Positions 622-60,941 of a stretch of DNA of 64,000 nt are shown in pieces. Source of the DNA: Segetibacter aerophilus (GTDB lineage: Bacteria; Bacteroidota; Bacteroidia; Chitinophagales; Chitinophagaceae). The notes below the pieces were generated by a model that was given only the letters and a program-made list of their open reading frames with translations, was not told the origin of the DNA and did not search any database. The DNA is taken from the NCBI RefSeq assembly GCF_007991655.1, contig NZ_BJYT01000002.1, positions 248,001 to 312,000 on the forward strand. The letters run 5' to 3'. The position numbers were made by a program, and so were the translations under genes. How positions within the stretch are numbered: the first letter of the stretch is position 1; each line of letters begins with the position of its first letter.

Positions 622-640
622 GGAATGCGACGCAACGATG
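622..640 (+). repeat. Dispersed repeat copy, CGACGCAACGATG form
   Basis: The core TGCGACGCAACGATG is at 626-640, in the eboB-eboC spacer and antisense to those genes. Only the 3' half of the family consensus is kept. Confidence 0.7.
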
Positions 641-678
641 CAGGTGTAAGAACGAATGTTTGTAACCAACATTTTCTC

Positions 679-1665
679 TTAACTGATAATGATAGATGCC
701 TTGTCAATGCGTGGCTGTTGACCTCCACGTAACACCGTGTTGCCTTCGAACTTCACTGACTGGTCGATATTCTTAATTGACACAAAATCTTCCTCATTTA
801 TCTGCCCGCTCTTACCGAAAGCCGTGATGGCATTTTGGTAGGTAACCAAATGAATGTCGTGATTGCTGATGCCACGTTGCTTCATTAAGGCGGCAGTTTT
901 GGGGACCGCAAGTGGGTCGCTGATGCCCCAGTCTGCAGCGGAGTTAATCATGATTCGTTCTGAGCCGTATTGTTTTACAATCTCAACCATCCGCTCGTTA
1001 CCCATTTTTGTGAAAGGGTAGATGGTGAAGGCCGTCCAAAAACCGCGATCAAGGACTTCTTTTACTGTTTCTTCGTTGTTGTGGTCAACCACAACCATAT
1101 CAGGACTTAATCCATGCTCAATAGCAATGTCCATGCTTCTGCGCGTGCCCCTTTTCTTGTCTCTATGAGGCGTATGAATTTGGACGGGAAGTCCTGCATC
1201 TTTCGCCAGTTCCAATTGCTGGCGGTAATATTTTTCTTCGGCTGCGGTCTGGTCGTCAAAGCCAATTTCACCTATACCCACGACGCCTTCTTTCATTATA
1301 AATAACGGAAGGATTTCCATTACCTGCTCTGCAAGAGTTTCGTTATTTGCTTCGCGAGAGTTGAGGCCTATTGTGCAATAATGTTTTATGCCAAATTGAG
1401 ATGAGCGAAATCTTTCCCAGCCGATAAGGCTGCTATAATAATCGCGGAAACTATCGATTCCTGTTCTTGGCTGCCCGAGCCAAAAAGCCGGCTCTATCAG
1501 TGCGACTACGCCTGCATCGTACATCGCCTGGTAATCGTCGGTAGTACGCGAGGTCATGTGCACGTGTGGGTCAAAAAAACGCATTCCTTTGATACCTTCT
1601 AAATCAACAGGCGTTGAGGCATCTGTCGAATTTCTGTTCTCACCGTCATTAGAACTGCAACACAT
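679..1665 (-). CDS. eboB: TatD family metal-dependent hydrolase EboB
   Basis: Amidohydrolase-fold protein of the TatD type, the EboB member of the ebo cluster. It has the N-terminal HxH metal site (FFDPHVHM, about residues 30-37), a central GVVGIGEIGFD with the metal-binding Glu, VQIHTPHRD, VVVDHNNEE and a late MINSAADWG carrying the usual Asp. The 328-residue frame starts 27 residues before the conserved MRFFDPHVHM; a start at that Met (codon 1585-1587) would give a length nearer to other TatD proteins, so the N-terminus is uncertain. The substrate of EboB is not known. The gene lies 32 bp after eboA and before eboC, in the A-B-C order seen in other ebo clusters. Confidence 0.85.
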   Translation of the reverse strand: MCCSSNDGENRNSTDASTPVDLEGIKGMRFFDPHVHMTSRTTDDYQAMYDAGVVALIEPAFWLGQPRTGIDSFRDYYSSLIGWERFRSSQFGIKHYCTIGLNSREANNETLAEQVMEILPLFIMKEGVVGIGEIGFDDQTAAEEKYYRQQLELAKDAGLPVQIHTPHRDKKRGTRRSMDIAIEHGLSPDMVVVDHNNEETVKEVLDRGFWTAFTIYPFTKMGNERMVEIVKQYGSERIMINSAADWGISDPLAVPKTAALMKQRGISNHDIHLVTYQNAITAFGKSGQINEEDFVSIKNIDQSVKFEGNTVLRGGQQPRIDKASIIIS

Positions 1666-1697
1666 ATGGCAGAGATAAATAAGTTAATAAATGGGAA

Positions 1698-2567
1698 CTA
1701 TAAAGTGTTCCAGTTAAGTGTATTTTCTGTTATAGCCTTTTTCAAATCCGGTTCTTTTTCAACCAACTGCTTTGCGGGCTTGTAAGCACTGAAATAACAA
1801 GCAAGTGCGGCTGCCTTTCTCTCAGAGGTTTCACTGTTTTTGAAAGCTTTTTCCAGGTTACTGAAATTACTTTCATTTATAAAAGGTGATACGAGCCGCC
1901 ACAACTGGGGGTTAACCAGGCGGTGCGCAGCCCAGCGCTCATTGGCATAATCAATTAAGATAGATGCCAATTCTTCATTTGCTCTTTCGTCTAAACCAAT
2001 AATTCTCTTTACATCTTTATCGGTAAAAAAAGCTTTCATCACCAGTTGGTTCCAAGCTTGCTCACTTAAATATTGATAAGGATAAGGATTGTTGTACATG
2101 ATTGCTTCCAGCACAACACCAATATTACTTCTGATGCCTTCGCTGCATTGCTTTTGCCAATCTTCAGCATAATTAAAAGCTGGCAAAGCAGAGTAGAGGG
2201 CGACTTGTTCGTTCATTTCTGCTGCCCTAAAAAGATTTTCTAACTTCTTAAAGTAGATTTCCTTGTCTGACGAATTTACTTGCAATAATATCCAAACCCT
2301 GCAAAGTCTGTCGATGGTCCAGTCATTAATGTTAAATTCAGGATGTATTTGTTTTAATTTTTCTTGTTCCCCCGGAAGCACCTTAATTAATTGCCTGCCT
2401 GTTTTACGCGGAACTGCTACAAAAGCAAGGTTTAATTGTAAAGCGTTTTTCTCTTCTTGTACCTGCGAAGCCTTTTCCTGCAGCCAGCTGTTAATGTCAG
2501 AGGATACATTGTATTGTAAAATATCGCCAAATACTTCTTTTAAAAAGTCGCCTTTATTCTGCTGCAT
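1698..2567 (-). CDS. eboA: EboA domain-containing protein
   Basis: First gene of the ebo cluster (289 residues from the chosen start). The C-terminal half carries what I recognise as the EboA signature: NEQVALYSALPAF, EGIRSNIGVVLEAIMYNNPYP, AWNQLVMKAFF, IIGLDERANEELA and YANERWAAHR. The protein looks soluble and helical and has no catalytic motif I can name. I chose the ATG at 2565-2567, one base after the TGA of the upstream TMEM220-like gene. The longer frame to 2618 would overlap that gene by 50 bp and only adds residues translated from its membrane-coding sequence. The tight spacing implies one transcript for TMEM220-like, eboA, eboB and eboC. The biochemical role of EboA is unknown. Confidence 0.88.
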   Translation of the reverse strand: MQQNKGDFLKEVFGDILQYNVSSDINSWLQEKASQVQEEKNALQLNLAFVAVPRKTGRQLIKVLPGEQEKLKQIHPEFNINDWTIDRLCRVWILLQVNSSDKEIYFKKLENLFRAAEMNEQVALYSALPAFNYAEDWQKQCSEGIRSNIGVVLEAIMYNNPYPYQYLSEQAWNQLVMKAFFTDKDVKRIIGLDERANEELASILIDYANERWAAHRLVNPQLWRLVSPFINESNFSNLEKAFKNSETSERKAAALACYFSAYKPAKQLVEKEPDLKKAITENTLNWNTL

Positions 2568-2568
2568 A

Positions 2569-2949
2569 TCAGGAATGAAGATTATTAACGGCAAAATAGT
2601 TAATAGCCAAAGCGGCACTTATTATAATGAGACCAAAAAATTCTCTCGTCTTTTCAATATACGGTTTAGTCGCCTGCATGCTCTCTACAATACTGGGCTT
2701 ATTGTATTTCATGATCCAATCTCTGACCCCGTCTTTGGCAAAAAAAAGTTTGATAGCATACACAATGTAGAATGTGATAGCAATAAGGTAGATAAGCGGG
2801 TAATATAGATGAAAAGCTGCCAGCCCACAGCAGATGGCTGCAACCATGTAAATAGGTACCCAAAGCCAGGAGTCGTTGTCGTTGAGATTTACATAAGCGA
2901 ATAAAATAAAAGCTATACAAAAGAAGCCGTTTAAAATACTTAGAAACAT
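2569..2949 (-). CDS. TMEM220-like small membrane protein
   Basis: 126-residue membrane protein with about four hydrophobic helices: residues 3-20, then the stretch VPIYMVAAICCGLAAFHLYY, then LIYLIAITFYIVYAIKLFF, and a C-terminal LIIISAALAINYFAV. The opening FLSILNGFFCIAFILFAYVN with LNDNDSWLWVPIYM matches the transmembrane 220 family known in bacteria and eukaryotes, which has no assigned function. Its TGA is one base from the eboA ATG, so it is translationally linked to the ebo genes and is probably the first gene of their transcript. A -7 type box (TATTTTTG on the minus strand, 2990-2997) lies about 40 bp upstream. Confidence 0.75.
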   Translation of the reverse strand: MFLSILNGFFCIAFILFAYVNLNDNDSWLWVPIYMVAAICCGLAAFHLYYPLIYLIAITFYIVYAIKLFFAKDGVRDWIMKYNKPSIVESMQATKPYIEKTREFFGLIIISAALAINYFAVNNLHS

Positions 2950-2989
2950 GGGATTTTATTTAGCAATCATTACAGGATAATTTCTAAAG

Positions 2990-2997
2990 CAAAAATA
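2990..2997 (-). promoter_or_regulatory. Candidate Bacteroidota -7 promoter box for TMEM220-ebo genes
   Basis: Reads TATTTTTG on the minus strand, matching the TAnnTTTG -7 consensus of Bacteroidota. It would start transcription about 34 bp before the TMEM220-like ATG. A clear -33 TTTG at the expected spacing is not evident. Confidence 0.35.
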
Positions 2998-3141
2998 GAA
3001 TGTAATAGTGAGAAATATTCTTTCAACGTTCCAACTTTTGAAAGTAACGGACGGACGAGTAATACAATTATAATTGTCATCAATTTCAGAATTTGTTTTG
3101 TTTACAGATCAATTAACACTTATACCACTTCCGGGGCTTCT

Positions 3142-3169
3142 ACTTGTGTACTTCTACTCTTGTACTTCC
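3142..3169 (-). repeat. Degenerate dispersed repeat, two 5' halves
   Basis: On the minus strand AAGTACAAGAGT is followed directly by AGAAGTACACAAGT. This looks like two copies of the AAGTACAAG half of the family without the GCAACGATG half. Confidence 0.4.
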
Positions 3170-3387
3170 AAATTGTAATTAACCTGGTACTATTATAATA
3201 TTTTATAAAAAATATTTAGGACCGAGGTGCAGCAAAACAGTCTAAAAAGAAATCTTAAACTGAGGCTTCTAATAACCATTCTTCAAAATTTTTAAAAAGC
3301 CATGCTTTAGATCAAATAAAGTATCAAGACAGTTTGAGAAATTGGTTTATAACAAAAAAAAGTTAAAGAAATACCAACAATAATTTA

Positions 3388-3405
3388 AAAAGTACATGTA
3401 CTTTT
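3388..3405. promoter_or_regulatory. 18-bp perfect palindrome upstream of susC
   Basis: AAAAGTACATGTACTTTT is a perfect palindrome ending 23 bp before the susC ATG. Its place and symmetry suit an operator for a dimeric regulator, but no regulator is encoded next to it. Confidence 0.35.
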
Positions 3406-3428
3406 AACACAATAAACTCTACTGCTAT

Positions 3429-6386
3429 ATGAAAGAAATTAAACTCTTACTATGCCTTGTTATTCTGGTATGTGTGTCTGTATTCTCTTTTGGGCAATCC
3501 AGAACGGTTACGGGACAGGTGACAGATAGTAAGGATAATTCTCCACTTGTTGATGCGACAGTTTCAGTTGTCGGAAAATCAGTCAGCACAAAAACGAAAG
3601 CAGATGGAAGTTTTTCCATCAATGTACCTTCAGGTTCTAACCAATTAAGGATTACCTATATTGGTTTCCAGGACCAAACGGTAAGCATTACCGGAAGTAA
3701 TGTCACCATTTCTATGGCTGCATCAACAGAAAATCTTACCGATGTTGTTGTAGTAGGTTATGGTACTGCAAGAAGAAAAGACCTTACAGGCTCTGTCGCT
3801 TCTGTAAAAGAGAAAGATTTTAATAAGGGTGTTTTTACATCACCTGACCAGTTGATCCAGGGTAAAGCTGCAGGCGTATTGGTCATCAACAATACCGGAC
3901 AACCCGGCGGTTCTACAACAGTAAGAATCCGCGGGGCCTCTTCTATCAGATCCGGAAACCAGCCATTATTTGTCGTAGATGGCGTGCCTCTATCAGGCGG
4001 TTCTGCCCGTCCCGGTGGAGCTGGTTCAGGTTCTTATGGTAATGATGCCGGAAATCCTTTGAACTTTATAAATCCTAGTGACATTGCCGGTATCGAGATA
4101 TTAAAAGACGCCTCTGCGACTGCAATTTATGGCTCCCGCGGCGCAAACGGCGTTGTATTAATTACTACTAAGAGAGGCAAATCAGGCGCTCCTCAAGTAG
4201 ATGCAAGTGCTTCAACCAGTGTTAGTTCTCTTATTAAAACATTGAAAGTGTTGAATGGGGATGAATACAGAGCTGCATTGAAGGATTACGGGCTTACAAG
4301 CGGAGATTTTGGAGGCAACGTTAATGCTTTTGATGCCATTACCCGTAAAGGTATTACTCAAAATTACAGCACAGCAATAGGCGGTGGTACTGAAAATGGA
4401 CGATATAGAATATCCGCTGGTTACCTTAATCAGCAGGGCATTATTAAAACTTCTAATTTAAAAAAGTTTACCGCTAATCTTACCAGTAATTTCAGGTTCT
4501 TAGAAAGTAAAAAATTAGGCCTTGATATAAACATATTGGTTAGTCAAACTGATGAGCAAATTGCACCTATTTCAGCTTTTGTTGGTTTTGAAGGTAATCT
4601 CATTTCGCAAGCCTTACAGTGGAATCCTACTCATCCATTAATAAAACCCGGGACTGACTCAGCCTGGATCGACCCCCTTGCCGGAGAAACGACCATTAAT
4701 CCTCTTGCCCAACTAAGATACTTTGATGATAGAGCGAAGGTAAATTCTATCATAGCCAGTATATCGCCCTCGTATAAAATTACAAAGGATCTTGAGTATA
4801 AGTTTCTTTATAGCGTTAACAGGCAGGTGGGAGTAAGACGAGGTCAGGTAAACCGGTTATTAAATGCTTCGGGGATTGTTAACAGAGGTGCCGCTTTTAT
4901 AAGCAACTCGGAGCAAACGAATACTCAAATAACTAATACACTCAATTATAATAAGCAGCTTACTTCTGATTTTAATCTAAATGCTGTGGTAGGACACGAA
5001 TGGCTCACCTTCGACTCAAGAGGAAATTCTTTAAACGGTCAGGATTTTACCAATGTAGGGTTGAATTATTATGATTACATCGGATATTCTGCTCAAAACA
5101 CCCGCGGAATTGGTTCCTCTGCCTCACCTACAACTGAGTTACAGTCTTACTTTGGCAGGGCGATAATTAATTATAAAGACAGGTACTTGATAACCGGAAC
5201 ATTCAGGGCAGATGGCTCTACGCGGTTCGGAGAGAACAATAAGTACGGTTATTTTCCCTCAGTAGGAGTAGCGTGGAACGCTTCCAGCGAAAACTTTTTA
5301 AAGAACAATACTTTTATAAACAATCTTAAGGTGCGTGCCAGTTGGGGTAAAACGGGTAACCAGGAGTTTCCTTCCGGAGCTTCGTTAAACAGGTTTGGAT
5401 TTGGTCAGCAATCTATTTCCCGGGCAGCTTTTGGAAACCCAGACCTGAAGTGGGAGACCTCAACAACAACAAACGCTGGTATAGACTTTAGTATCCTGGG
5501 GAATAGGATCTTTGGATCGGTAGATTATTTTTATAAAAAGACTACCGACGTTTTATTTGAACAAACTATTGCGCAACCTGCGCCTTCGGGAAGAATATGG
5601 ATTAACCTTCCCGGATATGTTCTAAATAAAGGGGTTGAAATCTCATTAACTGGCTCAGTACTTCAAAGCAAGGATTTAAACTGGAACATTGGTGGTAATG
5701 CTTCTTTTCTGCAAAATGATGTGCAAGGTTTAAAAGGTTTCTATGAAACTGGTGTATTAAGAGGACAAGGTTTTTCTGATGTAAGAGGTCAGCGTCTTAT
5801 AAACGGACAACCATTGAATGTCTGGTATTTAAGAAGATTCGAAGGAATTGATAAAACGACAGGGCAAAGTATATATACGGATGGGGGTAATACCCTTTTC
5901 TACTCTGGCAGTCCAAATCCAAAAATGTTGTTAGGGTTGACAACTGACTTCAATTATAAAAAGTTAACCGCTACCGTTAACATGAACGGAACTTTTGGAC
6001 ATTACTTGTTTAACAACACAGCAGCCTCAGTGTTAGGCATTGGAAACCTGGGAACAAGGAATATTGCCAAAAACCTAGTAGGAACAGGTATCAAAGAAGC
6101 CGTCTCTAATGCTCCATCCCCATCTACCCGTAACCTCGAAAAAGGGAATTATATTAAAATGGCTAACGCAACCATTAGTTATAGAATCGGGAATATTGGA
6201 AACAGTATCAGGAATTTAAATATTTCGTTAACAGGCCAAAACCTGTTTGTAATAACCAAGTACAGCGGATTTGATCCTGAAGTAAATACAGATGCCGGTC
6301 TTGACGGCATACCTTCATTGGGGGTTGAATATATTCCTTACCCTTCTGCAAGAACATTCCTTTTAGGGTTAAACTTCTCTTTATAA
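3429..6386 (+). CDS. SusC/RagA family TonB-linked outer membrane protein
   Basis: TonB-dependent outer-membrane transporter of the SusC class (985 residues, normal length). A signal peptide (about 1-22, ending SFGQ) leads into a carboxypeptidase-regulatory-like beta-sandwich (about 26-98, VTGQVTDSKDNSPLVDATV). The plug begins with LTDVVVVGYGTARRKDLTGS and contains the signature GIEILKDASATAIYGSRGA and GVVLITTKRGK near residues 223-250. The rest is a 22-strand-type barrel ending in Phe-Ser-Leu. It is followed 8 bp later by its SusD partner, so the two form the usual lidded import complex. The genes downstream suggest a sugar or glycoside as substrate, which is inference. A palindrome lies just upstream. 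Confidence 0.95.
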   Translation: MKEIKLLLCLVILVCVSVFSFGQSRTVTGQVTDSKDNSPLVDATVSVVGKSVSTKTKADGSFSINVPSGSNQLRITYIGFQDQTVSITGSNVTISMAASTENLTDVVVVGYGTARRKDLTGSVASVKEKDFNKGVFTSPDQLIQGKAAGVLVINNTGQPGGSTTVRIRGASSIRSGNQPLFVVDGVPLSGGSARPGGAGSGSYGNDAGNPLNFINPSDIAGIEILKDASATAIYGSRGANGVVLITTKRGKSGAPQVDASASTSVSSLIKTLKVLNGDEYRAALKDYGLTSGDFGGNVNAFDAITRKGITQNYSTAIGGGTENGRYRISAGYLNQQGIIKTSNLKKFTANLTSNFRFLESKKLGLDINILVSQTDEQIAPISAFVGFEGNLISQALQWNPTHPLIKPGTDSAWIDPLAGETTINPLAQLRYFDDRAKVNSIIASISPSYKITKDLEYKFLYSVNRQVGVRRGQVNRLLNASGIVNRGAAFISNSEQTNTQITNTLNYNKQLTSDFNLNAVVGHEWLTFDSRGNSLNGQDFTNVGLNYYDYIGYSAQNTRGIGSSASPTTELQSYFGRAIINYKDRYLITGTFRADGSTRFGENNKYGYFPSVGVAWNASSENFLKNNTFINNLKVRASWGKTGNQEFPSGASLNRFGFGQQSISRAAFGNPDLKWETSTTTNAGIDFSILGNRIFGSVDYFYKKTTDVLFEQTIAQPAPSGRIWINLPGYVLNKGVEISLTGSVLQSKDLNWNIGGNASFLQNDVQGLKGFYETGVLRGQGFSDVRGQRLINGQPLNVWYLRRFEGIDKTTGQSIYTDGGNTLFYSGSPNPKMLLGLTTDFNYKKLTATVNMNGTFGHYLFNNTAASVLGIGNLGTRNIAKNLVGTGIKEAVSNAPSPSTRNLEKGNYIKMANATISYRIGNIGNSIRNLNISLTGQNLFVITKYSGFDPEVNTDAGLDGIPSLGVEYIPYPSARTFLLGLNFSL

Positions 6387-6394
6387 TTTAAAAA

Positions 6395-7979: not shown

Positions 7980-8183
7980 CGTTTTGTACTGAATGGTTGC
8001 TTTCGATAAAAGGTTAAGTGCCGCTAGAACAGGAATGCAGACAAAGGAAACTTTTACCACTTTTACATGCGGAACTGGTAGGTGTTGTACAAACAATACA
8101 ATCGGCTAGTTGGAGAAGTAATAGAAAACTTTAAATAGATTTGACACGGAAGAAAGATCAACAATAATTTACGGATAATGTGA

Positions 8184-8199
8184 TTGCGCCGCAACGATG
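8184..8199 (+). repeat. Dispersed repeat copy abutting a start codon
   Basis: TTGCGCCGCAACGATG, one base different from the CGACGCAACGATG core, ends 5 bp before the ATG of the ASPIC/UnbV gene. It is in frame with that gene and would read as MRRND. Confidence 0.65.
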
Positions 8200-8204
8200 A
8201 CACC

Positions 8205-11200
8205 ATGAAAACTAACGTTGGTATAAAAAAAAATACAGGAAGCTTAATAATCCATGCTTTTGTAAAAGATATTAGAAAGAGGTTTTTCAGGACTATTAAA
8301 AATAGAAACCGCTTCATTATACATTCAATACTGGTAATTTCATTTTGTATTTCATGTAAATCTAAACCCGCTGTTCCGCCAATGTTTGCAGTGCTGGATA
8401 ACAACAGAACGGGTCTTAACTTCTCCAACCAACTTACCGCAACGGACACTTTCAACATGTTGAAGTACATGTACTTTTATAATGGTGCTGGAGTGGGTGC
8501 AGGCGATTTTAATAATGATGGAAAGATCGATTTATTTTTCTCTTCGAACCAAGGCAACAATAGTCTGTATTTGAACACAGGAGAGTTGCATTTTAAGGAT
8601 GTTACTGATGAAGCGGAAATACCAAAAGAAAATGCGTGGAACTCAGGCGTTTCTATTGTAGACATAAATAATGATGGTTTTCTTGACATTTATATCTCCA
8701 GGGTCGGAAAGTATGAGATTCTAAATAGCAGAAACGAATTGTTGATTTGCAAAGGGATTAATAAAAACGGAATTCCACAGTATGTTGATAAAGCACATGA
8801 ATATGGCCTTGATTTTTCAGGCTTTAGCACACAAGCGGCTTTTCTTGATTATGACATGGACGGTGACCTCGATATGTTTTTATTAAACCATTCTGTTCAC
8901 GAAAACGGGTCATTTCGCCCGAGAAAAGATTTTATCGGCACATACAGTGAGTTGTCTGGAGATAGGATGTTTCGTAATGACGGAAATCGTTTTACAGATG
9001 TTACTCATTATACAGGAATTAACAGTTCTGCCATTAGTTATGGATTAGGAGTAGTCGTAGCAGATATTAACCTTGATGGCTATCCTGATATGTATATAGG
9101 AAACGATTTTCATGAAAATGACTATTTATACATTAATCAGAAAAACAGCACTTTTAAAGAAGAAATTAATAATGAAATAATGCACACCAGCAAGTTTACG
9201 ATGGGTGTAGATGCTGCTGATGTTAATAATGATGGCTACCCTGAAATTATTTCCGTGGATATGTTGCCATCAGATCCTCACGTTTTAAAAAGCTCTTTTG
9301 GAGAAAATGAATATGATATCTATAACCTTAAGATAAAGCATGGTTATAATTACCAGTATACACGTAACAACTTTCAATTCAACCGAAAGAATGCAATGTT
9401 TAGTGAGATAGGTTTGTATTCTGGAATTGCTGCCACTGATTGGTCATGGGCTCCTTTATGGGTTGATTTTGATAATGATGGCCTTAAAGACCTGTTTATT
9501 TCTAACGGAATACCAAAGCGGATGAATGACATTGATTATGTCAATTTTATTTCTGACCAGGAAGTACAACAAAAGATACAGGACAAAAAAATTTATGGAA
9601 ACGATGCGACACTCATGAATGAGTTTCCTAAAATAAAAATACCAAATAAGTTTTTTAAAAACACGGGACAGCTACTGTTCTCTGATATGGAACAAAATAT
9701 CAGTAACGATAGATCCACTTATTCGAATGGTGCTGTTTATGCTGATTTTGATAATGACGGAGATTTGGATATAGTTGTAAATAACATAGATGAGCCCGCA
9801 CTGTTATATGAGAATAAAAATAATAATTTACACCAGAAAAAAGCGCTCGAAATAGCTTTAAAGGGAGATGTAAAAAATATTAATGGAGTTGGAGCTAAAG
9901 TGATTGTTTATGCAGATAAAGGCATTCGGATTTATGAAAAAAATGCAGTACATGGCTTCCTTTCAAGTATGGAAATACCTATGCACATAGGCCTTGATAA
10001 AACTACTATAGATTCTATTTTTCTTGTTTGGCCCGATAATACCTATCAGTCTATACAAATTCCCGGCGATACATCTTTACTTAAGCTGACCTATCGGACT
10101 AACTTACCCCAATTTGATTACAGCAAAATTACTTCTTTTAAAAAGCCTGAAAGTTTTCCTATGGCGGATATTACCGCTGCTACGGGGCTTACTTTTAAAC
10201 ATGAAGAAAATTCTTTTAACGAATTCGACCGCGAACCTTTAATACCGCACATGCTATCCACTGAAGGGCCGGGGCTAGCAGTAGCTGACATCAATCATGA
10301 CGGACTTGACGATGTCTTTATCGGTTCTTCGAAAGGAAAAAAGAGCGCGGTTTTTATTCAAAATAAGCAGGCAAAATTTAATAAAATAGATATACCTGTT
10401 TTAGATAATGATAGTACCTATGAAGATGTAGATGCTTGCTGGACAGATGTAAATAACGATGGCAATACAGATCTTGTCGTGGCAAGTGGGGGAAACGAAT
10501 ATTATGGCGAGGATAAATATTTAAGTCCCCGTGTTTATCTAAACGATGGAAAGGCACATTTTACTGTTTTGAATAATGCTTTTAATCATTTGTTCGTTAA
10601 TGCTTCCACAATTGCTCCATGTGATTTTAATGGTGATGGATTTATTGATTTGTTTATCGGTGGACGTTCTGTCCCTATGAGTTATGGTGAAGTTCCTCAC
10701 TCGTATCTTTTGCTCAACGATAAAACCGGCAGGTTCAAAGACATTACTTCTTTTTATGCAAAAGAATTGCATGATGTAGGATTTGTGACACACGGTATAT
10801 GGCTCGATTTGGATAAAGACGGCGACAAAGACCTGGTTCTCTCACTTGAATGGGACCGTATTATTGCATTCATCAATGAAAAGGGAAGTTTTAGAAAGAA
10901 GTTATTAACCGAAAAGAAAGGATGGTGGAATTTTATTACCCCTTGTGATATTGATAATGATGGAGATATTGACCTAATAGCAGGTAATCTAGGTCGAAAC
11001 AGCAGGTTAAAAGCTTCCGAAAAAGAAGAGGTAAAGCTTTACTATAACGATTTTGATGAAAATGAAAGAAAGGAACAGGTGCTGACATATTATCTAAACG
11101 GAAAAGAAATTCCTTTCGCGAACAAAGCGGAATTAGAAAAGCAAATGCCTTTTCTTAAGAAGAAATTCCTGTATGCAAGAGATTTTGCTGACGCCTCACT

Positions 11201-11630: not shown

Positions 11631-11712
11631 TTGGTGATCTTACGTAACAGTTATTTATAGTAACAATAAAAAGAGGTATTTTTTTTCAGACCTACCGCTC
11701 CTCTGTATCTAG

Positions 11713-11738
11713 CATTCTTGCGTGGCACTCTTGTACAG
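11713..11738 (-). repeat. Diverged dispersed repeat copy
   Basis: On the minus strand GTACAAGAGTGCCACGCAAG followed by AATG, close to the GTACAAG...TGCGACGCAACGATG consensus. It lies between two convergent genes. Confidence 0.6.
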
Positions 11739-21282: not shown

Positions 21283-21558
21283 AGGCACACATTATACTTG
21301 TTTGGCAGGTCGATCTTATTATCATGATAATTTAAACCTGGCTTGATCAACTTTCTACTGCTTGCTGCATTTTGCTTTGTTTCCAAAAATGTGCTCGAAT
21401 CCTTTAAAGGGAAACTTAGTAACATTGGAAAGAGCTTCCCTTAGAAACCGCAGAGAAAATCCAGAGAAAGTTGAAGTGTGCGACGCAACGATGTTGCCCT
21501 TATTGATACCGTTGGCAACAAAAAAATTTTAAAAGAATTCATCGTATTTAAAGACCTT
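21283..21558. other. Spacer with a possible gene remnant and a dispersed repeat
   Basis: 276 bp without a supported gene. A short frame from about 21340 to 21441 reads like the start of an exported protein (LINFLLLAAFCFVSKN) and then stops, which may be a decayed partner of the preceding gene. A repeat copy is at 21471-21496. Confidence 0.4.
21471..21496 (+). repeat. Dispersed repeat copy, CGACGCAACGATG form
   Basis: GTTGAAGTG-type 5' half joined to TGCGACGCAACGATGTTG. It ends 62 bp before the haloperoxidase ATG and, read in frame from 21478, adds a false MRRNDV to that protein. Confidence 0.8.
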
Positions 21559-29041: not shown

Positions 29042-29083
29042 ATGGTTGTTTTTGTTACCGGCATCAAACCGTTATTGGGTCTT

Positions 29084-29110
29084 TTGTTGTGTCACTCACT
29101 TGTACCTTTT
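29084..29110 (-). repeat. Dispersed repeat copy, GAGTGACACAAC form
   Basis: On the minus strand GGTACAAGTGAGTGACACAA followed by CAAAAG. The 3' GATG is lost. It lies 80 bp from an oppositely oriented copy. Confidence 0.8.
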
Positions 29111-29190
29111 ATGCTTTATTCAACAAAAATTCATGTTATATGATTCCTCTCATCGTTATGCGCGCATCGCGGTTGATGCAGAAAACTCAG

Positions 29191-29215
29191 GCACAAGAGT
29201 GCGACGCAACGATGT
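29191..29215 (+). repeat. Dispersed repeat copy, CGACGCAACGATG form
   Basis: GCACAAGAGTGCGACGCAAC followed by GATGT. Together with 29084-29110 it makes a head-to-head pair of the two main forms in one spacer. Confidence 0.85.
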
Positions 29216-29290
29216 CTAATAAAACTTTTAATGTCGGGTAAAAAGAAAAAACCCAGTTGATTAGAGATTTTAGCTTTACAGCAAAAACCG

Positions 29291-34374: not shown

Positions 34375-34403
34375 AAGTACAAGTGAGTGACACAACAGAT
34401 GTT
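34375..34403 (+). repeat. Dispersed repeat copy, GAGTGACACAAC form
   Basis: AAGTACAAGTGAGTGACACA, then ACAGATGTT, with one inserted A relative to the consensus ACGATGTT. It lies 100 bp before kdsC. Confidence 0.85.
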
Positions 34404-34502
34404 TTATTGAAAATATAAAAGCTTGTTACAAAAGGTTAAAACTATCGTAGCACGTTGACTGCTACATCTTCTGCTCTTTTTTTAGAATTCCAATTGACTT
34501 AT

Positions 34503-36066: not shown

Positions 36067-36669
36067 ATGCAAAAAATTATACTTGCGTCGCAATCTCCCC
36101 GAAGAAAGCAATTATTAGAGTGGGCAGAAATTCCATTTGAAATTGTGGTAAAGAGCACAGAAGAAACATACCCCGAAGATTTACCTATAGAAGAAATTCC
36201 GATACACATTGCCAGGCAAAAAGCGATTGTGGTGACTGAAACAATTACTAAAATGGTAAAGCTTTCGCAAGAACCAAAAATTATTCTTGCGGCAGACACG
36301 GTAGTAGTACTTGGCGATAAGATAATTGGGAAGCCTGTAGACAGGCAAGACGCAATTGACATACTTATATCTCTTTCAGGGAATTTGCACAGAGTGATAA
36401 CAGGGGTGGTAATTCAGCAGGGCGATCAGGAAATCGCTTTTTCCGATATTACTTCCGTTCAGTTTCATGAGCTAACGAAACAACAAATAGAATTTTATGT
36501 CGATAAATACAAGCCCTACGATAAGGCAGGCGCTTATGCTATCCAGGAATGGATAGGAGTTGTTGGAATAAAATCTGTGTCGGGAGATTTCTACAATGTA
36601 ATGGGACTGCCTGTGAGTAGGGTGGTTCAAGAACTAGAAAAGTTGAAACGAAAAGAACTAAAGGAGTAA
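36067..36669 (+). CDS. maf: Maf family nucleotide pyrophosphatase
   Basis: 200-residue Maf/YhdE-type protein. It opens with ILASQSPRRKQLLEWAEIPF, the phosphate-binding SxSPRR motif. Later signatures are ILAADTVVVLGDKIIGKP, LSGNLHRVITGV and DKAGAYAIQEWIG, with the catalytic Asp in AADTVV and the substrate-binding E/K residues. These enzymes hydrolyse non-canonical or bulk nucleoside triphosphates (dTTP, UTP, or modified bases) to monophosphates. The ATG at 36067 is chosen over an upstream in-frame start that lies within the preceding gene. Confidence 0.92.
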   Translation: MQKIILASQSPRRKQLLEWAEIPFEIVVKSTEETYPEDLPIEEIPIHIARQKAIVVTETITKMVKLSQEPKIILAADTVVVLGDKIIGKPVDRQDAIDILISLSGNLHRVITGVVIQQGDQEIAFSDITSVQFHELTKQQIEFYVDKYKPYDKAGAYAIQEWIGVVGIKSVSGDFYNVMGLPVSRVVQELEKLKRKELKE

Positions 36670-36725: not shown

Positions 36726-38015
36726 ATGAATGAGCGCTTACTTCAATACATTTGGCAATTTCAATACTTTAATAAAACTGCATTGAAGGTAGAGCAGGGA
36801 CAAGAGTTGACCATTATTCATCCCGGCACCTACAATACTCACCAAGGGCCTGACTTTCTTGATGGAAAAGTAACTATCGGAAATACAACCTGGGCAGGTA
36901 ACATCGAAATTCATATAAATTCTTCTGATTGGATAAAGCATACGCACGGTAATGATATAAATTATTCAAACGTTATTCTTCACGTCGTCTGGAACAATGA
37001 TGGCGATATAGCTTATTACAACGGCTCAATCCTTCCTACACTTGAGTTACATAATCTCGTCTCGAAGTTATTATTAGATAGGTTTAGAGATCTAATGGCC
37101 CGAAAAGCTTTTGTACCATGCGAAGCCTACCTGCCAGTATTTAACGAAATGAAATGGACGGCGTGGAAAGAACGGATGATAATAGAAAGATTGCAGCGAA
37201 AGTCGGCTTTTGTATTAGAGCTTTTGAAAGAAGCTAAAAATCACTGGGAAGAAGTTTTTTGGTGGATGCTAGCAAGAAACTTTGGAATTAGGGTAAATGC
37301 AGACATCTTTGAAGCAATTGCTAAAAGTCTTCCTTTAAACATTGTCGGTAGGCACAAAAATCAAATTCATCAACTAGAAGGTTTTTTACTGGGACAAGCG
37401 GGTCTCCTTAATCACGAATTTTCGGAAGACTATCCCAACCTTTTGAAGAAAGAATATCTTTTTTACCAGAAGAAATACCAGTTAAAGCGGGTTTTTATTA
37501 AACCGTTTTTTCTTAGGATGAGACCAGCCAATTTTCCAACTATAAGATTAGCTCAGTTGGCGATGCTGGTTCATAAGTCCTCTCATCTTTTTTCAAAAAT
37601 AAAAGAGACTGATTCTGTTACAGAGATAAAGAAGTTGCTGAACGTGACAGCAAATGATTACTGGCATTACCATTATTTACTTGATGAGCCGGGTGATTAT
37701 CATCCAAAACAGCTGGGTAAGCAGATGGTGGAAAATATCATTATCAATACTGTGACACCTGTCTTGTTTGCCTATGGTTTATTAAACGGCGACACTCTTC
37801 TCAAAGACAAAGCGCTCGAGTGGCTGGCAGAACTCTCCCCTGAAAAAAATAGCATTACACAAACATGGACTTCGTTTGGTGTAACTAGCAATAGTGCTTT
37901 GGAAAGCCAGGCACTAATCGAGCTTAAAAATAGTTATTGCAATAAAAAGAGATGTTTGGAATGTGCTGTAGGGAACAGCATTTTAAAAGGGCACGAACTC
38001 ATTAGAAGTTACTAG
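36726..38015 (+). CDS. DUF2851 family protein
   Basis: 429-residue cytosolic protein of DUF2851, a family confined mostly to Bacteroidota. It begins with NERLLQYIWQFQYFN, followed by LTIIHPGTYNTHQGPDFLDG, GNIEIHINSSDWIKH and VILHVVWNND, the conserved N-terminal core. A C-terminal Cys cluster (NSYCNKKRCLECAVGN) is typical and may bind metal. The His and Asp residues in the N-terminal core suggest an enzyme, but no activity is known. It follows maf by 56 bp on the same strand. Confidence 0.87.
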   Translation: MNERLLQYIWQFQYFNKTALKVEQGQELTIIHPGTYNTHQGPDFLDGKVTIGNTTWAGNIEIHINSSDWIKHTHGNDINYSNVILHVVWNNDGDIAYYNGSILPTLELHNLVSKLLLDRFRDLMARKAFVPCEAYLPVFNEMKWTAWKERMIIERLQRKSAFVLELLKEAKNHWEEVFWWMLARNFGIRVNADIFEAIAKSLPLNIVGRHKNQIHQLEGFLLGQAGLLNHEFSEDYPNLLKKEYLFYQKKYQLKRVFIKPFFLRMRPANFPTIRLAQLAMLVHKSSHLFSKIKETDSVTEIKKLLNVTANDYWHYHYLLDEPGDYHPKQLGKQMVENIIINTVTPVLFAYGLLNGDTLLKDKALEWLAELSPEKNSITQTWTSFGVTSNSALESQALIELKNSYCNKKRCLECAVGNSILKGHELIRSY

Positions 38016-39314: not shown

Positions 39315-39389
39315 CGAGGCAACTTGCAAAAAGTTCTAGTTGGTTTAATAGAAAATAAAGGTGTTCTTTTTCCCTGCGTTTCACCAGCC

Positions 39390-39420
39390 TCAACATCGTT
39401 GTGTCACTCACTTGTACTTT
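39390..39420 (-). repeat. Dispersed repeat copy, GAGTGACACAAC form, near full length
   Basis: On the minus strand AAAGTACAAGTGAGTGACAC continues as AACGATGTTGA. It is among the most complete copies and lies between the barrel-like gene and lipA. Confidence 0.9.
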
Positions 39421-40692: not shown

Positions 40693-40720
40693 GTTGAAGT
40701 GAGTGACACAACGATGTTGA
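40693..40720 (+). repeat. Dispersed repeat copy, GAGTGACACAAC form
   Basis: GTTGAAGT joined to GAGTGACACAACGATGTTGA. It lies between the convergent lipA and YCII-like genes. Confidence 0.9.
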
Positions 40721-40749
40721 GTAGAAATTCGAGGTTTATCCCCAAAAAA

Positions 40750-45151: not shown

Positions 45152-45204
45152 TTTTTAAAACGTAGTGAATGATTCTGTACCAGGCAGAATAAACACGCGC
45201 AGCA

Positions 45205-45230
45205 GTTGTTGCGTCGCACTCTTGTACTTT
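45205..45230 (-). repeat. Dispersed repeat copy, CGACGCAAC form
   Basis: On the minus strand AAAGTACAAGAGTGCGACGC, then AACAAC. The GATG end is changed. It lies between convergent genes. Confidence 0.85.
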
Positions 45231-49110: not shown

Positions 49111-49139
49111 AAGTAAAAGGGTGCGACGCAACGATGTTA
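49111..49139 (+). repeat. Dispersed repeat copy, CGACGCAACGATG form
   Basis: AAGTAAAAGG joined to GTGCGACGCAACGATGTTA. It lies between the DUF1553 and DUF1501 genes, 70 bp before the latter. Confidence 0.88.
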
Positions 49140-49208
49140 AGCAATGTTTTACCGCTCGCTACAAAAGGCCAATACTACTTATTCCCTTTTCGATCTAAAT
49201 AAGATCTT

Positions 49209-53576: not shown

Positions 53577-53642
53577 GCCTCCGGCGTATATAATTTATAC
53601 GGTATTAGACCTTTTTGTAGCCAGCCAATCTTTTCATAGCAT

Positions 53643-53666
53643 CATCGTTGCTACGCTCAGTTCAAC
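53643..53666 (-). repeat. Dispersed repeat copy, GAGCGTMGCAAC form
   Basis: On the minus strand GTTGAACTGAGCGTAGCAAC then GATG. It matches the copy at 56990-57013 at 21 of 24 positions. Confidence 0.75.
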
Positions 53667-53787
53667 TGTCAGTAAATCAGTCAGCCTATCAAGCTTTGTG
53701 ATGATTGCTTTTACAGCGCGTTTCGTTTGTTGCTAGCGAAGGAGATAGAAGGCAGGTAACAGTTTGAGATGGAGCTATAAAAAAAAT

Positions 53788-53813
53788 GGCTCCTCCGTAG
53801 AAACGGAGCAGCC
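53788..53813 (-). terminator. Minus-strand hairpin terminator
   Basis: Stem GGCTGCTCCGT/ACGGAGGAGCC with one mismatch and a 4-nt loop, followed on the minus strand by a run of T. It is too far (about 550 bp) from mgtE to be an ordinary 3' end of that gene. Confidence 0.75.
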
Positions 53814-54290
53814 TCTAACGATTGCTTGCCATATGAAAATCTTAAATATCTTGATCGGCTAAAAGCCTCTTAATTTCTTGTTCTTGTAATAGCGTGTTAT
53901 CAATTAGTAATGATATCCTGTTATTATTCCTCAAAAGTAAAAGCTTCTATCAAGCGTTTTAATCTAATAATTGGTTATTTAATTATCGCTAATTCCTTCG
54001 GAATCTCTTAAAACCCTTGCTGGTAGTGTATTTTCTACACATTCCTCTATTATCGCCAAGCTTAAAAAAAACTTAATAGATTATGAATCATTAGCGAATT
54101 TTCGTGCAGTTTACTTTCTCATTTTCTATTCGAGCTTAATTTATGGCGTTCACGGAGATTGTCGCGCTCGATCGGTGGCCAATACAAATGGTGATGCCGT
54201 TGCCCGCCGTTGTTGGTTGCTTAACCAACAGCTAGTTTTCACTATGCTGCCACAACTAGGTGTACGCTAATTAAGCTCAATAAAGATTTG

Positions 54291-54320
54291 TAGTAAAAGG
54301 GAGTGACACAACGATGTTGA
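54291..54320 (+). repeat. Dispersed repeat copy, GAGTGACACAAC form
   Basis: TAGTAAAAGG joined to GAGTGACACAACGATGTTGA. It lies 46 bp past the 3' end of mgtE. Confidence 0.88.
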
Positions 54321-54366
54321 CTAATATTTAAATGCTTGCTCCAAAAAAATTACAAATCATTACTGC

Positions 54367-55758: not shown

Positions 55759-55837
55759 GGCTGCAAATTAAGTATTTTGAAAGCTTAAATTTTATTACTG
55801 TGTTTCAATTTCTTTAACTTGCCCGCAAGAATTTAAT

Positions 55838-56939: not shown

Positions 56940-56989
56940 GATGCAGTAAGAGTTATTTTAAGTTTACAGGCAGTTGGTTAAGCTGGTAG

Positions 56990-57013
56990 CATTGTTGCGA
57001 CGCTCCGTTCAAC
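56990..57013 (-). repeat. Dispersed repeat copy, GAGCGTMGCAAC form
   Basis: On the minus strand GTTGAACGGAGCGTCGCAAC then AATG. It lies in the spacer between the AlkD-like gene and the aconitase gene. Confidence 0.75.
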
Positions 57014-57110
57014 TTCAGTTCATTGTTTTAATGTTTTTTGTAGAGAATTTCTAAATAGCAATATTGGGAAGTGTAATGTTCAAATTAAGAGGAAATTGGT
57101 GAAAATAAAA

Positions 57111-57133
57111 GAGGTTATCTTTTGGATAACCTC
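57111..57133 (-). terminator. Rho-independent terminator after aconitase
   Basis: Perfect 9-bp stem GAGGTTATC/GATAACCTC with a 5-nt loop, followed on the minus strand by a T-rich stretch, 26 bp past the aconitase stop. Confidence 0.88.
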
Positions 57134-57158
57134 TGGTAACAATCAAGAATAAGTTCTA

Positions 57159-59438
57159 TTAGGAATTAGCAGCAGCCAAAGCATTTTTGCGAATGATATT
57201 TAGTGCAGCCCCTGCCTTAAACCACTCAATCTGTTGTTCGTTATAAGTATGGTTTACTATGATGCTTTCAGAAGATCCGTCCGCATGATGCAACACAAGC
57301 GTTAACGGTGTGCCGGGTGCGAAGTGATTTAATCCCTCAATGTCAATAGTGTCATCTTCAAGAATTTTTTCATAGTCCTCTTTGTGCGCAAAGGTCAAAG
57401 CCAACATACCTTGCTTCTTCAGGTTTGTTTCATGAATACGGGCGAAAGATTTTACCAGGATCGCACGTACACCAAGATGACGTGGTTCCATGGCAGCATG
57501 CTCTCTTGAAGATCCTTCACCGTAGTTTTCATCACCTACGACAATGCTTCCTAAACCTGCAGCTTTATAAGCTCGTGCAGTTGCAGGCACTGGTCCGTAT
57601 TCTCCGGTCAACTGGTTTTTAACTTTATCAGTGCTATCATTGAAATAGTTTAAAGCACCAATCAGCATGTTGTTTGAAATGTTGTCAAGATGTCCCCTGA
57701 ACTTCAACCATGGACCAGCCATAGAGATGTGGTCAGTAGTACATTTTCCTCTTGCTTTTATTAACAGGCGCAAACCTTTAATATCAGTTCCTTCCCATGC
57801 AGGAAACGGTTCGAGTAACTGAAGGCGCTGAGAGTCGGGACTGACCAAAACCTGCACATTACTTGGATCTTCTGCCGGAGCCTGATAGCCTGGATCTTCT
57901 ACAGAAAAGCCTTTTGGAGGTAACTCGTATCCTTTAGGTTCATCTAACTTAACCTGCTCTCCATCTTCATTTAATAAAGTGTCGGTTAACGGGTTGAAAG
58001 TAAGATCGCCTGCGAGTGCAAAGGCGGTAACAATTTCAGGAGAGGCGACAAACGCATGTGTGCCGGGAAAGCTATCGTTACGCTTTGCAAAATTCCGGTT
58101 GAAAGAAGTGATGATAGAGTTTTTACGGGTAGGATCATCAATATGACGGGCCCACTGTCCGATACACGGACCGCAGGCGTTAGCTAATACAAGTCCGCCC
58201 ATATTGTCGTAGGCTTTTAACCAACCATCTTTTTCTACAGTATATCTTACCAACTCACTACCGGGAGAAATTGTAAACTCAGCTTTTGCTTTCAGGTTTT
58301 TGTCTACAGCCTGTTGAGCAATTGATGCAGAACGGCTAATGTCTTCATAAGAACTGTTAGTGCAAGATCCAATCAATGCTACTTCCAGTTTCTCAGGCCA
58401 GTTGTTTGCTTTTACCGCTTCAGCAAAACGGCTGATAGGCCATGCTAAGTCAGGAGTATAAGGGCCATTTACATGTGGCTCCAGTTCATTTAGATTTATT
58501 TCTATGACCTCGTCATAGTACTTTTTGGGAGCAGCAATAACCTGCGTATCAGCACGAAGATGTTCTTTTATGCCATCCGCCAATTCAGCTATGTCAGCCC
58601 TATCTGTTGATTTCAAATAAGCGCTCATTCTATCGTCGTATCCAAAAATTGAACAGGTAGCTCCAATTTCAGCACCCATATTGCAAATAGTTGCTTTACC
58701 CGTTGCGCTGATTGCGTCAGCACCTTCACCAAAATATTCGACGATCGCACCTGTTCCACCTTTTACGGTAAGGATACCTGCAACTTTAAGAATAATATCT
58801 TTAGGAGCGGTCCAGCCACTCATCTTACCAGTAAGTTTAACACCTATTAATTTAGGCCATTTAAGTTCCCATGCAAGACCTGCCATCACATCGCTCGCAT
58901 CAGCTCCACCTACACCAATGGCGACCATTCCTAACCCACCGGCATTAGGCGTATGACTGTCGGTACCAATCATCATTCCCCCGGGGAAAGCATAGTTTTC
59001 TAAAACAACCTGGTGAATAATGCCTGCACCGGGTTTCCAGAAACCAAGGCCATATTTATTACAAACGGAGGCTAAAAATTCGTAAACTTCTTTATTCGTA
59101 TTTAATGCGGTATGTAAGTCTTCAGCTGCTCCTGTTTTCGCCTGTATCAGGTGATCACAGTGAACAGTACTAGGCACAGCAACCTGAGGACGACCTGCTT
59201 GCATAAATTGCAGCAAAGCCATTTGGGCAGTGGCATCTTGCATGGCAACACGGTCTGGAGCAAAATCTACGTAATGGACACCACGCTCAAAATTTTCCAG
59301 CTTCATATCCGTATGCAAATGTGCAAAGAGTATTTTTTCTGCGAGGGTTAGTGGTCTTCCGACCGCCGTGCGCGCTGCTTCAATTTTGCCGGGAAGTTCT
59401 TCGTAGACTTTTCTAATCATTTCTATGTCAAATGCCAT
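57159..59438 (-). CDS. Aconitate hydratase (mitochondrial-type)
   Basis: 759-residue aconitase converting citrate to isocitrate in the TCA cycle. Cluster ligands are in [18 protein letters not shown] and [16 protein letters not shown]. Other active-site blocks are [36 protein letters not shown]-like ([20 protein letters not shown]) and [19 protein letters not shown] with the catalytic Ser-Arg. The length and [20 protein letters not shown] place it with the mitochondrial-type AcnA branch, not AcnB. Single gene with a -7 box candidate upstream and a clear terminator. Confidence 0.95.
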
Positions 59439-59476
59439 GTCTAAAGATGATTTTAAGGTGTGAAAAAAAAGTTCAG

Positions 59477-59484
59477 CAAAATTA
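59477..59484 (-). promoter_or_regulatory. Candidate -7 box for aconitase
   Basis: TAATTTTG on the minus strand, an exact TAnnTTTG match, 39 bp before the ATG. No clear -33 partner. Confidence 0.38.
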
Positions 59485-59589
59485 CGTCAAAACTACTCTC
59501 AAGCGAAATAGATTTCTATCTCCGTGATTATTAATTTCTCTAAATTGCAGGGCAGATCTGAATACGGCAAAGGATTAAAAACTCATGCT

Positions 59590-59811
59590 ATGAAAAGTGT
59601 AAGGGAAATAATAGAGGTACATGCATTTGGTGTTTGCTCAGCCATAGGAGAGAAGATGGGAATAGCATCTACAAGAATCCGTATGTGGTTTATTTATATC
59701 TCCTTCTTGACCTTAGGTTCCCCCCTGATTATCTATATGGTTCTTGCCTTCTGGATTAATATCAAAAACTATATTTACTCCGCGAAAAGAAATCCTTTAC
59801 GTTATTTGTAG
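59590..59811 (+). CDS. PspC domain membrane protein
   Basis: 73-residue protein from the ATG at 59590, with a PspC core: GVCSAIGEKMGIASTRIRMW, then FIYISFLTLGSPLIIYMVLAF as the membrane helix. The earlier start at 59524 adds 22 residues not typical of the family. PspC domains sense envelope stress through the phage-shock system in Proteobacteria; in Bacteroidota such small proteins have unproven roles. It lies 14 bp before the first AraC regulator, so the two may be one transcript. Confidence 0.82.
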   Translation: MKSVREIIEVHAFGVCSAIGEKMGIASTRIRMWFIYISFLTLGSPLIIYMVLAFWINIKNYIYSAKRNPLRYL

Positions 59812-59825
59812 CAAAATTAAGTGCG

Positions 59826-60815
59826 TTGGTAAAAATTGAATTTGATCATACAGACTATGCTGAGTTATTAGACTACTACGCAGCAGCATTTAAAACAAAA
59901 GTAAAGAACAATAAACTCGAATTACCTTCAGATGTAGGTACAGGCTTTATAAAACTTATTGAACTTCCTAATGGCCTCCAGGGCCTTGTTTCTGATTACA
60001 CAGTGAGTCAGGATATGCTGCTCACCCGCTCAAAAATTAATAAGGATTATTTTACTCTACGCTTCGACGAAGTCATCATTCCAGATGCTGCTGCTATCGA
60101 CACAGTAGACGCGTCAATGCCTGAAATAAATCCTGTTCGCTCTGCTGTGTTTTTAGGAAGTACAAAGTTTGACTGGATGTTTCTTAGCACAAAAGGAACA
60201 CGGGTGAAGGGCGTAAATATTTTATTTAGTAAAGAGTGGCTTGAGCAATTTTTAGAAGTAGAAAGCGTTGGAGACTTAATAAAGAAGTACCTGAGTTTGA
60301 AGATGAGCGCGTTTAATTACGAGCCCATGGATATGGAGTATAAGAGAATTCTGGCTGAAATAGTTGAAACTAACGTTGACCCGGCTTTTGAAACATTGAT
60401 TATCCAGAATAGAGTAATGCTCTTGCTTGAGAGGTTTTTTACGAGGATCTATTACAAGATGAGTGATATGCACTTCGACGTGAAGCTGAGCAACGAGGAT
60501 ATCAACCGGCTAAAGATGATAGAAAAGGAGCTTGTTAAAGACTTTTCAATTGAACCTCCGGGAATAACTAAACTTGCCAGGCTAGCTGCGATGAGCCCTA
60601 GTAAACTTAAAAACAGTTTCAAAGAGATTTATGGTTTGCCGGTGTATCAATATTTTCAGAAGCACCGGATGAACAAGGCAAAGGCGATGCTGCTGAGCAG
60701 AAAGTATTCGGTAAGAGAAGTAGGTATAGAACTGGGCTACAGCAACCTAAGTAATTTCGCCAAGGCTTTCAAAAAATCATTTGACCAGTTGCCGAGCGAT
60801 CTTTTGGACAGGTAA
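59826..60815 (+). CDS. AraC family transcriptional regulator (first of tandem pair)
   Basis: 329-residue regulator read from a TTG start 14 bp after the PspC gene. The C-terminal AraC domain (about 240-328) has two helix-turn-helix units: ITKLARLAAMSPSKLKNSFK and VREVGIELGYSNLSNFAKAF with the FKKSFDQLPS ending. The N-terminal ~230 residues have no cupin motif I recognise but share pattern with the next regulator (ELLDYYAA.. and QNRVMLLLERFFTRIY). Ligand and target genes are unknown. Confidence 0.88.
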   Translation: MVKIEFDHTDYAELLDYYAAAFKTKVKNNKLELPSDVGTGFIKLIELPNGLQGLVSDYTVSQDMLLTRSKINKDYFTLRFDEVIIPDAAAIDTVDASMPEINPVRSAVFLGSTKFDWMFLSTKGTRVKGVNILFSKEWLEQFLEVESVGDLIKKYLSLKMSAFNYEPMDMEYKRILAEIVETNVDPAFETLIIQNRVMLLLERFFTRIYYKMSDMHFDVKLSNEDINRLKMIEKELVKDFSIEPPGITKLARLAAMSPSKLKNSFKEIYGLPVYQYFQKHRMNKAKAMLLSRKYSVREVGIELGYSNLSNFAKAFKKSFDQLPSDLLDR

Positions 60816-60920
60816 AGTGATAGTTGATAGAGATAAAAAAATCTGTTGAAATATAGAACTTGTTTAAAATTTATTGAAAGCTGTAGCATTAAACGACGTT
60901 GCAAAGAGATCTGCAGACGA

Positions 60921-60941
60921 AGTGCTTGCGACGCAACGATG
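60921..60941 (+). repeat. Dispersed repeat copy, CGACGCAACGATG form
   Basis: AGTGCTTGCGACGCAACGAT then G, with a shortened 5' half. It lies between the two AraC genes. Confidence 0.8.

Follow-up and report, generated by a model that had tools for sequence, protein, structure and literature searches.

The 64,000-nucleotide stretch of the Segetibacter aerophilus genome considered here (the window; C2:248001-312000 of the genome designated G000) carries many copies of one short sequence between its genes, which raises the question of what this repeat is and how it came to be so widely dispersed. We consider it probable, though well short of certain, that the copies belong to a dispersed non-coding repeat family of the Chitinophagaceae that resembles repetitive extragenic palindromic (REP) sequences and REP doublets forming hairpins (REPINs), and whose unit is an inverted doublet that spread in trans. 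The observations behind this reading are the anatomy of the single arm, the inverted doublets, the location in spacers, near-restriction to one family, a copy number that is high or nil, and a constrained core. The repeat is a very abundant non-coding component of a large Bacteroidota family.

All 15 sites listed in a preliminary description, which had claimed about 15 spacer copies in both orientations, are present in the sequence (15/15; Table 1). An nhmmer profile built from these 15 copies and applied to the window with a threshold of E<0.01 returned the same 15 and no others, which is partly by construction. Independently of the seed, the window contains the 8-mer CAACGATG 10 times, versus 1.57 expected. 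In a 1.25 Mb sample of G000 (C1:1-800000 plus C2:1-452000, the C2 part including the window) the profile gave 189 matches at E<0.01 versus 0 in reversed sequence, and 204 versus 2 at E<1, which bears out the expectation of a genome count above chance. Extrapolated evenly, this corresponds to ∼890 copies per 5.89 Mb genome. The two orientations number 64/60 on C1 and 45/30 on C2. Sampled stretches of genomes G034, G095 and G090 hold one arm per 2.6-3.1 kb.

The arm is ∼75 bp long. A shared core had been recognized before. It measures 24 bp, GTACAAGNGWGYGACRCAACRATG, and the unit extends further than described, with AAAA and a weak box, GCYGAATAAAG, ∼18 bp before the core (about -18) and a second box, GCYNGNNACAAAA, ∼42 bp in (about +42). 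The 20-mers given for the repeat hold as consensus strings, but many window copies keep the core only. Three forms had been distinguished. Among the 199 matches in the G000 sample (E<0.05) these were form A (GCGACGC, 64), form B (GTGACAC, 92) and form C (GCGTCGC or GCGTAGC, 17), to which we add form D (13), leaving 13 others. Form D has ATT or CTT ahead of GCGACGC, carries ATTGCGACGC or CTTGCGACGC, and takes in the window copy at 60920. Over 144 aligned copies mean likeness was 75% in the core, versus 35-36% in the segments to its left and in the middle of the arm. In these copies there is covariation between positions 12 and 16 (T-A 72, C-G 69, other 3). A local dyad was considered as the cause, but the covariation largely restates arm types A and B and was not used as evidence. 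A longer element extending leftward in G000 was also rejected: the motif search gave only box 1 there and k-mers beyond it were weak. AT-richness was the only signal on the right side. Copies in G090 mostly begin to resemble each other somewhere from -50 to 0 (the likeness reaching to about -45) and mostly cease to do so from +30 to +70, and the unit in that genome may be ∼100 bp.

The repeat is a spacer element. Only 6/199 matches lay mostly (more than half) inside called genes, in sampled regions of which 87% and 84% were called coding by an in-house hexamer gene caller whose calls are approximate, and the proposed enrichment in spacers over coding sequence was thus upheld. Set against the spacers of at least 100 bp, there were 38 elements to 75 convergent, 124 elements to 388 co-directional and 30 elements to 144 divergent spacers; the tally is one of elements, and a spacer may contain two of them or fall short of 100 bp. 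The difference in density between convergent and divergent spacers was significant (Fisher p 1.2e-5). In co-directional spacers 73 elements were antisense and 51 sense, and the orientation preference relative to genes is weak at most. On the side of the outer box (GCYGG) the median distance was 39 bp from stops and 72 bp from starts, versus 76 and 132 bp on the other side.

Proximity to 3' ends, in particular the 39 bp median from the stop on the outer-box side, is what a transcribed regulatory RNA, a terminator, a riboswitch or a promoter might show. The arms have no consensus fold, however, and follow no strict orientation rule, and strong hairpins adjoin the outer box in 5/144 copies versus 1 in shuffles. 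Rfam gave no match in the window, and at the doublets described below only a tRNA and one match below cut-off, both outside the arms. We therefore regard a function of this kind as very improbable. Folded as single-stranded DNA, one paired unit of genome G013 did better than most of its shuffles (z -2.3), which was not so for the window doublet (z -1.0). Targeting of terminators looked likely by eye at some doublets of G013 and G020, but the G000 hairpin count gave it no support and the idea was dropped.

How neighboring arms are arranged points to the unit. In G013 and G020, both relatives from the same family, arms stand head-to-head with their GCYGG..AAAA ends (GCYGGTWACAAAA) outward, and the 20 doublets compared measure 174-263 bp overall. 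Among the best 147 matches of G013, neighbors within 300 bp were head-to-head in 12/12 cases. In G000 all pairs closer than 400 bp were inverted (15/15), comprising 12 head-to-head, 3 tail-to-tail and 0 direct pairs. In 7/12 of the head-to-head pairs the ends that face each other are 85-101 bp apart. Many head-to-head pairs join one A arm to one B arm (7/12 in G000, 4/8 in G095, 2/2 in G090, 2/3 in G034), and forms A and B are therefore often the two arms of one inverted unit. In G000 the two arms were of the same type in 2/15 pairs closer than 400 bp (0.33 expected, hence below chance), in 8/13 at 400-1500 bp (above chance), and in 9/27 to 15/36 of the remaining inverted pairs. The centers of the G013 and G020 doublets (L173-L182 and L193-L202) vary from copy to copy, and several hold palindromes of their own.

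Inversion is also the rule for arms further apart. Among G000 neighbors closer than 3 kb, 55/58 were inverted (p 2e-13), versus 76/139 beyond 3 kb (p 0.31). Elsewhere inverted neighbors made up 23/25 in G013, 32/41 in G095, 14/16 in G090 and 10/11 in G034. Because no match overlaps another, the rule does not arise from counting single palindromes twice. When G000 neighbors up to 6 kb apart were grouped by the number of intervening genes, inverted and direct pairs numbered 17/0 for no gene, 19/3 for one, 25/4 for two, 13/9 for three and 12/8 for four. Within 3.5 kb, 18 single genes of G000 are flanked by inverted arms, 16 with Pfam matches and two without; these include Hsp70, gyrase B-type, ketoacyl synthase, LpxB and lipoyl synthase, a KH-domain GTPase that we take to be Era-like and a GHMP kinase that is presumably IspE-like. 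We count such genes as essential-looking. Direct arms flank a single gene in the same range in two cases. Loss by deletion of the DNA between direct repeats should have spared direct pairs around essential genes. Direct pairs are nearly missing even around essential-looking genes, where inverted ones are common, and such deletion is therefore a poor explanation of the rule. Gene inversion between inverted arms was seen neither around lipA nor around the aconitase gene in the relatives compared. A rare direct arrangement occurs in G035, where a 290-bp tandem repeat (L158 1560-2246; 2.4 copies, 92% match) adjoins two same-strand arms ∼275 bp apart.

A rule of this reach invites other explanations. 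The arms might still be in use by a Chitinophagaceae protein, either an enzyme or an architectural one, that acts on pairs of sites, inverted orientation being required within ∼3 kb and direct pairs being excised or harmful; we think this unlikely, but if it were true the genome would hold many inverted site pairs bracketing one or two, often essential-looking, genes. Of similarly low probability in our estimation is a host DNA-protein system, in which the core is bound by a protein that structures the chromosome or acts as an insulator, with genes lying between inverted site pairs. The 55/58 inverted neighbors, including those around Hsp70, gyrase B-type, ketoacyl synthase, KH-domain GTPase, LpxB and lipoyl synthase genes, would fit it, as would solo arms conserved like doublets and a core constrained at orthologous sites where the flanks are not (see below). 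The repeat is absent, however, from many genomes of the family and from congeners of rich genomes, and the orientation preference relative to genes, 73 versus 51 in co-directional spacers, is weak at most.

In a profile survey of 59 genomes with strict filters, in which counts stand as at least 80 where many copies were listed, matches were found in 27: 10/10 of the genus (G000 included), 17/26 other members of the family and 0/23 genomes from elsewhere in the order. A count of exact A cores, GTGCGACGCAAC, took in 117 Chitinophagaceae genomes and covers form A only. Its copy number ranged from 0 to 963, with 50 genomes having none, the highest counts being 963, 805 and 781, and reversed controls giving at most 3. 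The sister-genome count that had been proposed thus found the repeat throughout the genus and very unevenly across the family. Congeners differed sharply (0/195, 147/0, 81/0 and 0/29); in two of these four contrasts the zero members, G012 and G015, also gave no profile match, the other two resting on the A core only. With its abundance in one species and its scarcity or absence in another of the same genus, the repeat behaves like a dispensable, spreading one. A 17-mer pattern matched 0/194 genomes outside the family, in a draw that hit 2/4 family members. A pattern scan with organism names returned 11 stretches, from Segetibacter, Flaviaesturariibacter, Chitinophagaceae bacterium and one Sphingobacteriales bacterium. 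The repeat seems to be confined to the Chitinophagaceae.

Since many member genomes have no copies, a role in DNA uptake or chromosome organization, as once proposed, is unlikely for the family as a whole. A DNA-uptake signal kept through biased transformation would account for high copy number, both orientations, a conserved core and variable flanks. Yet 193/199 copies are not mostly genic, sister species have few or no copies, and known uptake signals are far shorter than the arm; we give this explanation hardly any credence. Copies were also sought on mobile DNA. One window copy tested against a plasmid collection gave no match. IMG/VR contained 28 viral-labeled stretches (L203-L230) with an A or B core and none with form D, several contigs having two or three. 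Host DNA beside proviruses might account for these copies, or else the arms might be phage-borne.

Orthologous spacers bear on the age of the repeat. Where a window site had an orthologous spacer in the congener G006, 8/9 held a copy in the same orientation, the site at 34377 holding none. The comparison of spacers once suggested gave no clean empty site. Rare forms are inherited as well (C at 53665, D at 60920). In the spacer 5' of lipA a copy occupies the same place and orientation as form B in G000, G006 and G009 and as form A in G005, G001 and G002, with no copy in the remaining four of nine congeners. G000 is without copies that G006, G005 and G009 have in common near 38010, and G006 and G009 near 62022. 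The arm at 60919 is not in G005 or G007, where the aligned spacers are 161 and 137 bp shorter. In the aconitase-adjacent spacer (the 56961 arm), G009 and G005 have an arm opposite in orientation to that of G000 and G006. No pair among the 144 aligned copies exceeds 78% identity over the arm columns, and most tested sites are common to a relative: the repeat is old in this genus.

At eight shared sites substitutions affected 20/189 core positions (11%) versus 232/814 flank positions (29%) (odds ratio 0.30, p 7.6e-8). Sites enter this count only where both copies are detectable, and detection of 8/9 sites at ∼29% flank divergence limits the resulting bias but does not remove it. Single copies may have a regulatory role, the core being constrained at orthologous sites. 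In G020 two sets of contig starts that differ in their outer flanks bear near-identical arms (53 bases are common to C66 and C67, and the same applies to C85 and C86), and copying there is therefore probably recent. In contigs C28, C46, C66, C67, C79, C85 and C86 of G020 the sequence opens inside an arm or directly ahead of one, and the repeats seem to break this assembly.

A mobilizer was sought along two lines. For REP-associated tyrosine transposases (RAYTs), represented by PF01797, some match was found in 44/59 genomes, with three matches in G000. At E 0.001 PF01797 matched nothing in G007 and G033, which have at least 80 copies each, past presence of a RAYT being possible; G010, where it did match, is free of copies. 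The other candidates were genes lying between arms. None of the 18 single genes flanked by inverted arms in G000 was a transposase by Pfam, and three G013 open reading frames between arms had no Pfam match. These results bear on a classical miniature inverted-repeat transposable element (MITE) moved by a DDE transposase and bounded by long terminal inverted repeats. Doublets of G013 and G020 do have terminal inverted repeats, since their arms are long, inverted and AT-rich at the outer ends, but most G000 arms are solo (169 versus 30 paired), no transposase was found among those 18 genes and three open reading frames, and the 20 doublets showed no target-site duplication. A classical MITE is accordingly improbable.

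The known systems nearest to the repeat are REPs. In the passages cited here REPs are extragenic, form alternating or inverted dimers with head-to-tail arrangements absent or under-represented, and often form heterodimers without obvious reason (PMC2817692, PMC3116915, PMC3733652). The present repeat shares with REPs, REPINs and bacterial interspersed mosaic elements a high copy number (>100), extragenic location, an inverted doublet unit, rare head-to-tail pairs and common heterodimers, as far as those passages describe them. Those elements are 20-40 bp with a stem and a GTAG tag; here the arm is ∼75 bp, stemless and tagless, and PF01797 does not track it. REPs of the CGTC type, in the passages on them, have no dedicated transposase, form mostly head-to-head dimers and occur in phyla among which Bacteroidetes are named (PMC3733652), and CGTC can also be read in the A core on its reverse strand. 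In the same passages, however, an 8-9 bp stem lies beside the tag, unlike the stemless arms here, and the main text of that paper does not include Chitinophaga. The enterobacterial repetitive intergenic consensus (ERIC)-like units of enterobacteria are described as non-coding, intergenic, 103-168 bp long and distributed within one bacterial family (PMC2759123, in the part cited), which is reminiscent of the present case. The likeness is one of description, and unlike ERIC the present repeat is mostly solo 75-bp arms plus doublets. To our knowledge no mobilizer of ERIC has been named.

Several results weigh against a REP/REPIN-like origin by spread of an inverted doublet. Across the 59 genomes PF01797 matches do not follow copy number, and RAYT was rejected as mobilizer; the link to a RAYT that the preliminary description had thought worth checking thus failed. 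No mobilizer was identified among the arm-flanked genes tested. At the 20 doublets direct repeats averaged 4.2 versus 4.5 in mismatched flanks, with outer boundaries that are approximate, and the orthologous spacers yielded no clean empty site. RNAalifold found 0 consensus pairs over 82 arms, where REPs have a stem, and the column consensus is GTACAAG without an adjoining stem, not the GTAG tag of RAYT-associated REPs. The passages on REPINs report singlets less conserved than doublets (PMC3116915), but in G000 decay was no greater in the 169 solo arms than in the 30 paired arms (medians of 28.4 and 25.9 bits, p 0.28; pairwise identity of the core 0.699 and 0.700). In the same passages REP spacings beyond 200 bp are random, and no inverted rule reaching 3 kb is reported. 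Mixed pairing is not general, since doublets were A+A in 10/12 cases in G013 and 7/7 in G020. One pattern match, finally, was labeled Sphingobacteriales and may or may not come from a Chitinophagaceae genome.

Since the repeat has neither the stem nor the tag, is not tracked by RAYTs and shows undecayed singlets, it is best placed as a REP/REPIN-like variant outside the known REP families. The earlier interpretation is partly supported, a REP/MITE-like element being, among its options, the best fit to spacers, inverted pairs and high-or-nil copy number. No earlier description of the repeat was found in the open-access literature searched (core strings; Chitinophagaceae or Chitinophaga repeats), and judged by title none of the papers that turned up on Bacteroidetes intergenic repeats concerns it. 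It looks like an undescribed family of small, ancient REP-like repeats whose core has changed unusually little in evolution.

If spread of a REP/REPIN-like doublet is the correct reading, the replicating unit would likely be two ∼75-bp arms in inverted orientation with their GCYGGTWACAAAA ends outward, copied in trans by an enzyme that the unit does not encode. Insertions would survive mainly in spacers, above all between convergent genes. Most copies in the genus would then be old solo arms whose 24-bp core is perhaps still bound by a protein and hence conserved; our reason for supposing a bound protein is the constraint on the core at orthologous sites. The repeat separates two questions that are mixed in REPs, namely spread without a linked transposase and later constraint on the core and on the orientation of neighbors. 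Sister species with hundreds versus few or no copies make both testable.

Table 1. Arms in the 64,000-nucleotide window of Segetibacter aerophilus (positions are those of the window)
Positions	Strand	Arm	Remarks	nhmmer E
623..669	+	A/D-type core (AATGCGACGCAACGATG)		4.3e-5
8180..8229	+	variant core GCGCCGCAACGATG		0.0039
11679..11736	-	degenerate A-type core		5.9e-4
21470..21523	+	A-type		1.2e-8
29050..29105	-	B-type	left half of head-to-head doublet 29050-29244	1.3e-7
29191..29244	+	A-type	right half of doublet 29050-29244	9.1e-10
34377..34433	+	B-type	orthologous G006 spacer shorter, without match	1.6e-8
39370..39417	-	B-type	upstream of lipA	9.7e-7
40693..40746	+	B-type	downstream of lipA; present in G006 and G005 too	9.5e-8
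45173..45227	-	A-type	G006 ortholog	2.5e-7
49113..49166	+	A-type	G006 has B-type there	9.4e-11
53613..53666	-	C-type (GAGCGTAGCAACGATG)	identical rare core in G006	2.8e-4
54293..54346	+	B-type	kept in G006	2e-10
56961..57013	-	C-type (GAGCGTCGCAACAATG)	kept in G006	0.0022
60919..60967	+	D-type (GAAGTGCTTGCGACGCAACGATG)	kept in G006 and G009	4.5e-5

A further, degenerate copy had been mentioned without a position. It may be the site near 36098 on the minus strand, a degenerate D-like core overlapping open reading frames and visible only with a looser matrix. Between two of the arms, positions 53720-54060 are non-coding and strongly conserved in G006. Rfam gave no match to this segment at E 1. 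It contains a hairpin, CTCCGTAGAAACGGAG, and a block, AAGCTTAAAA, and is a possible candidate for a small RNA.

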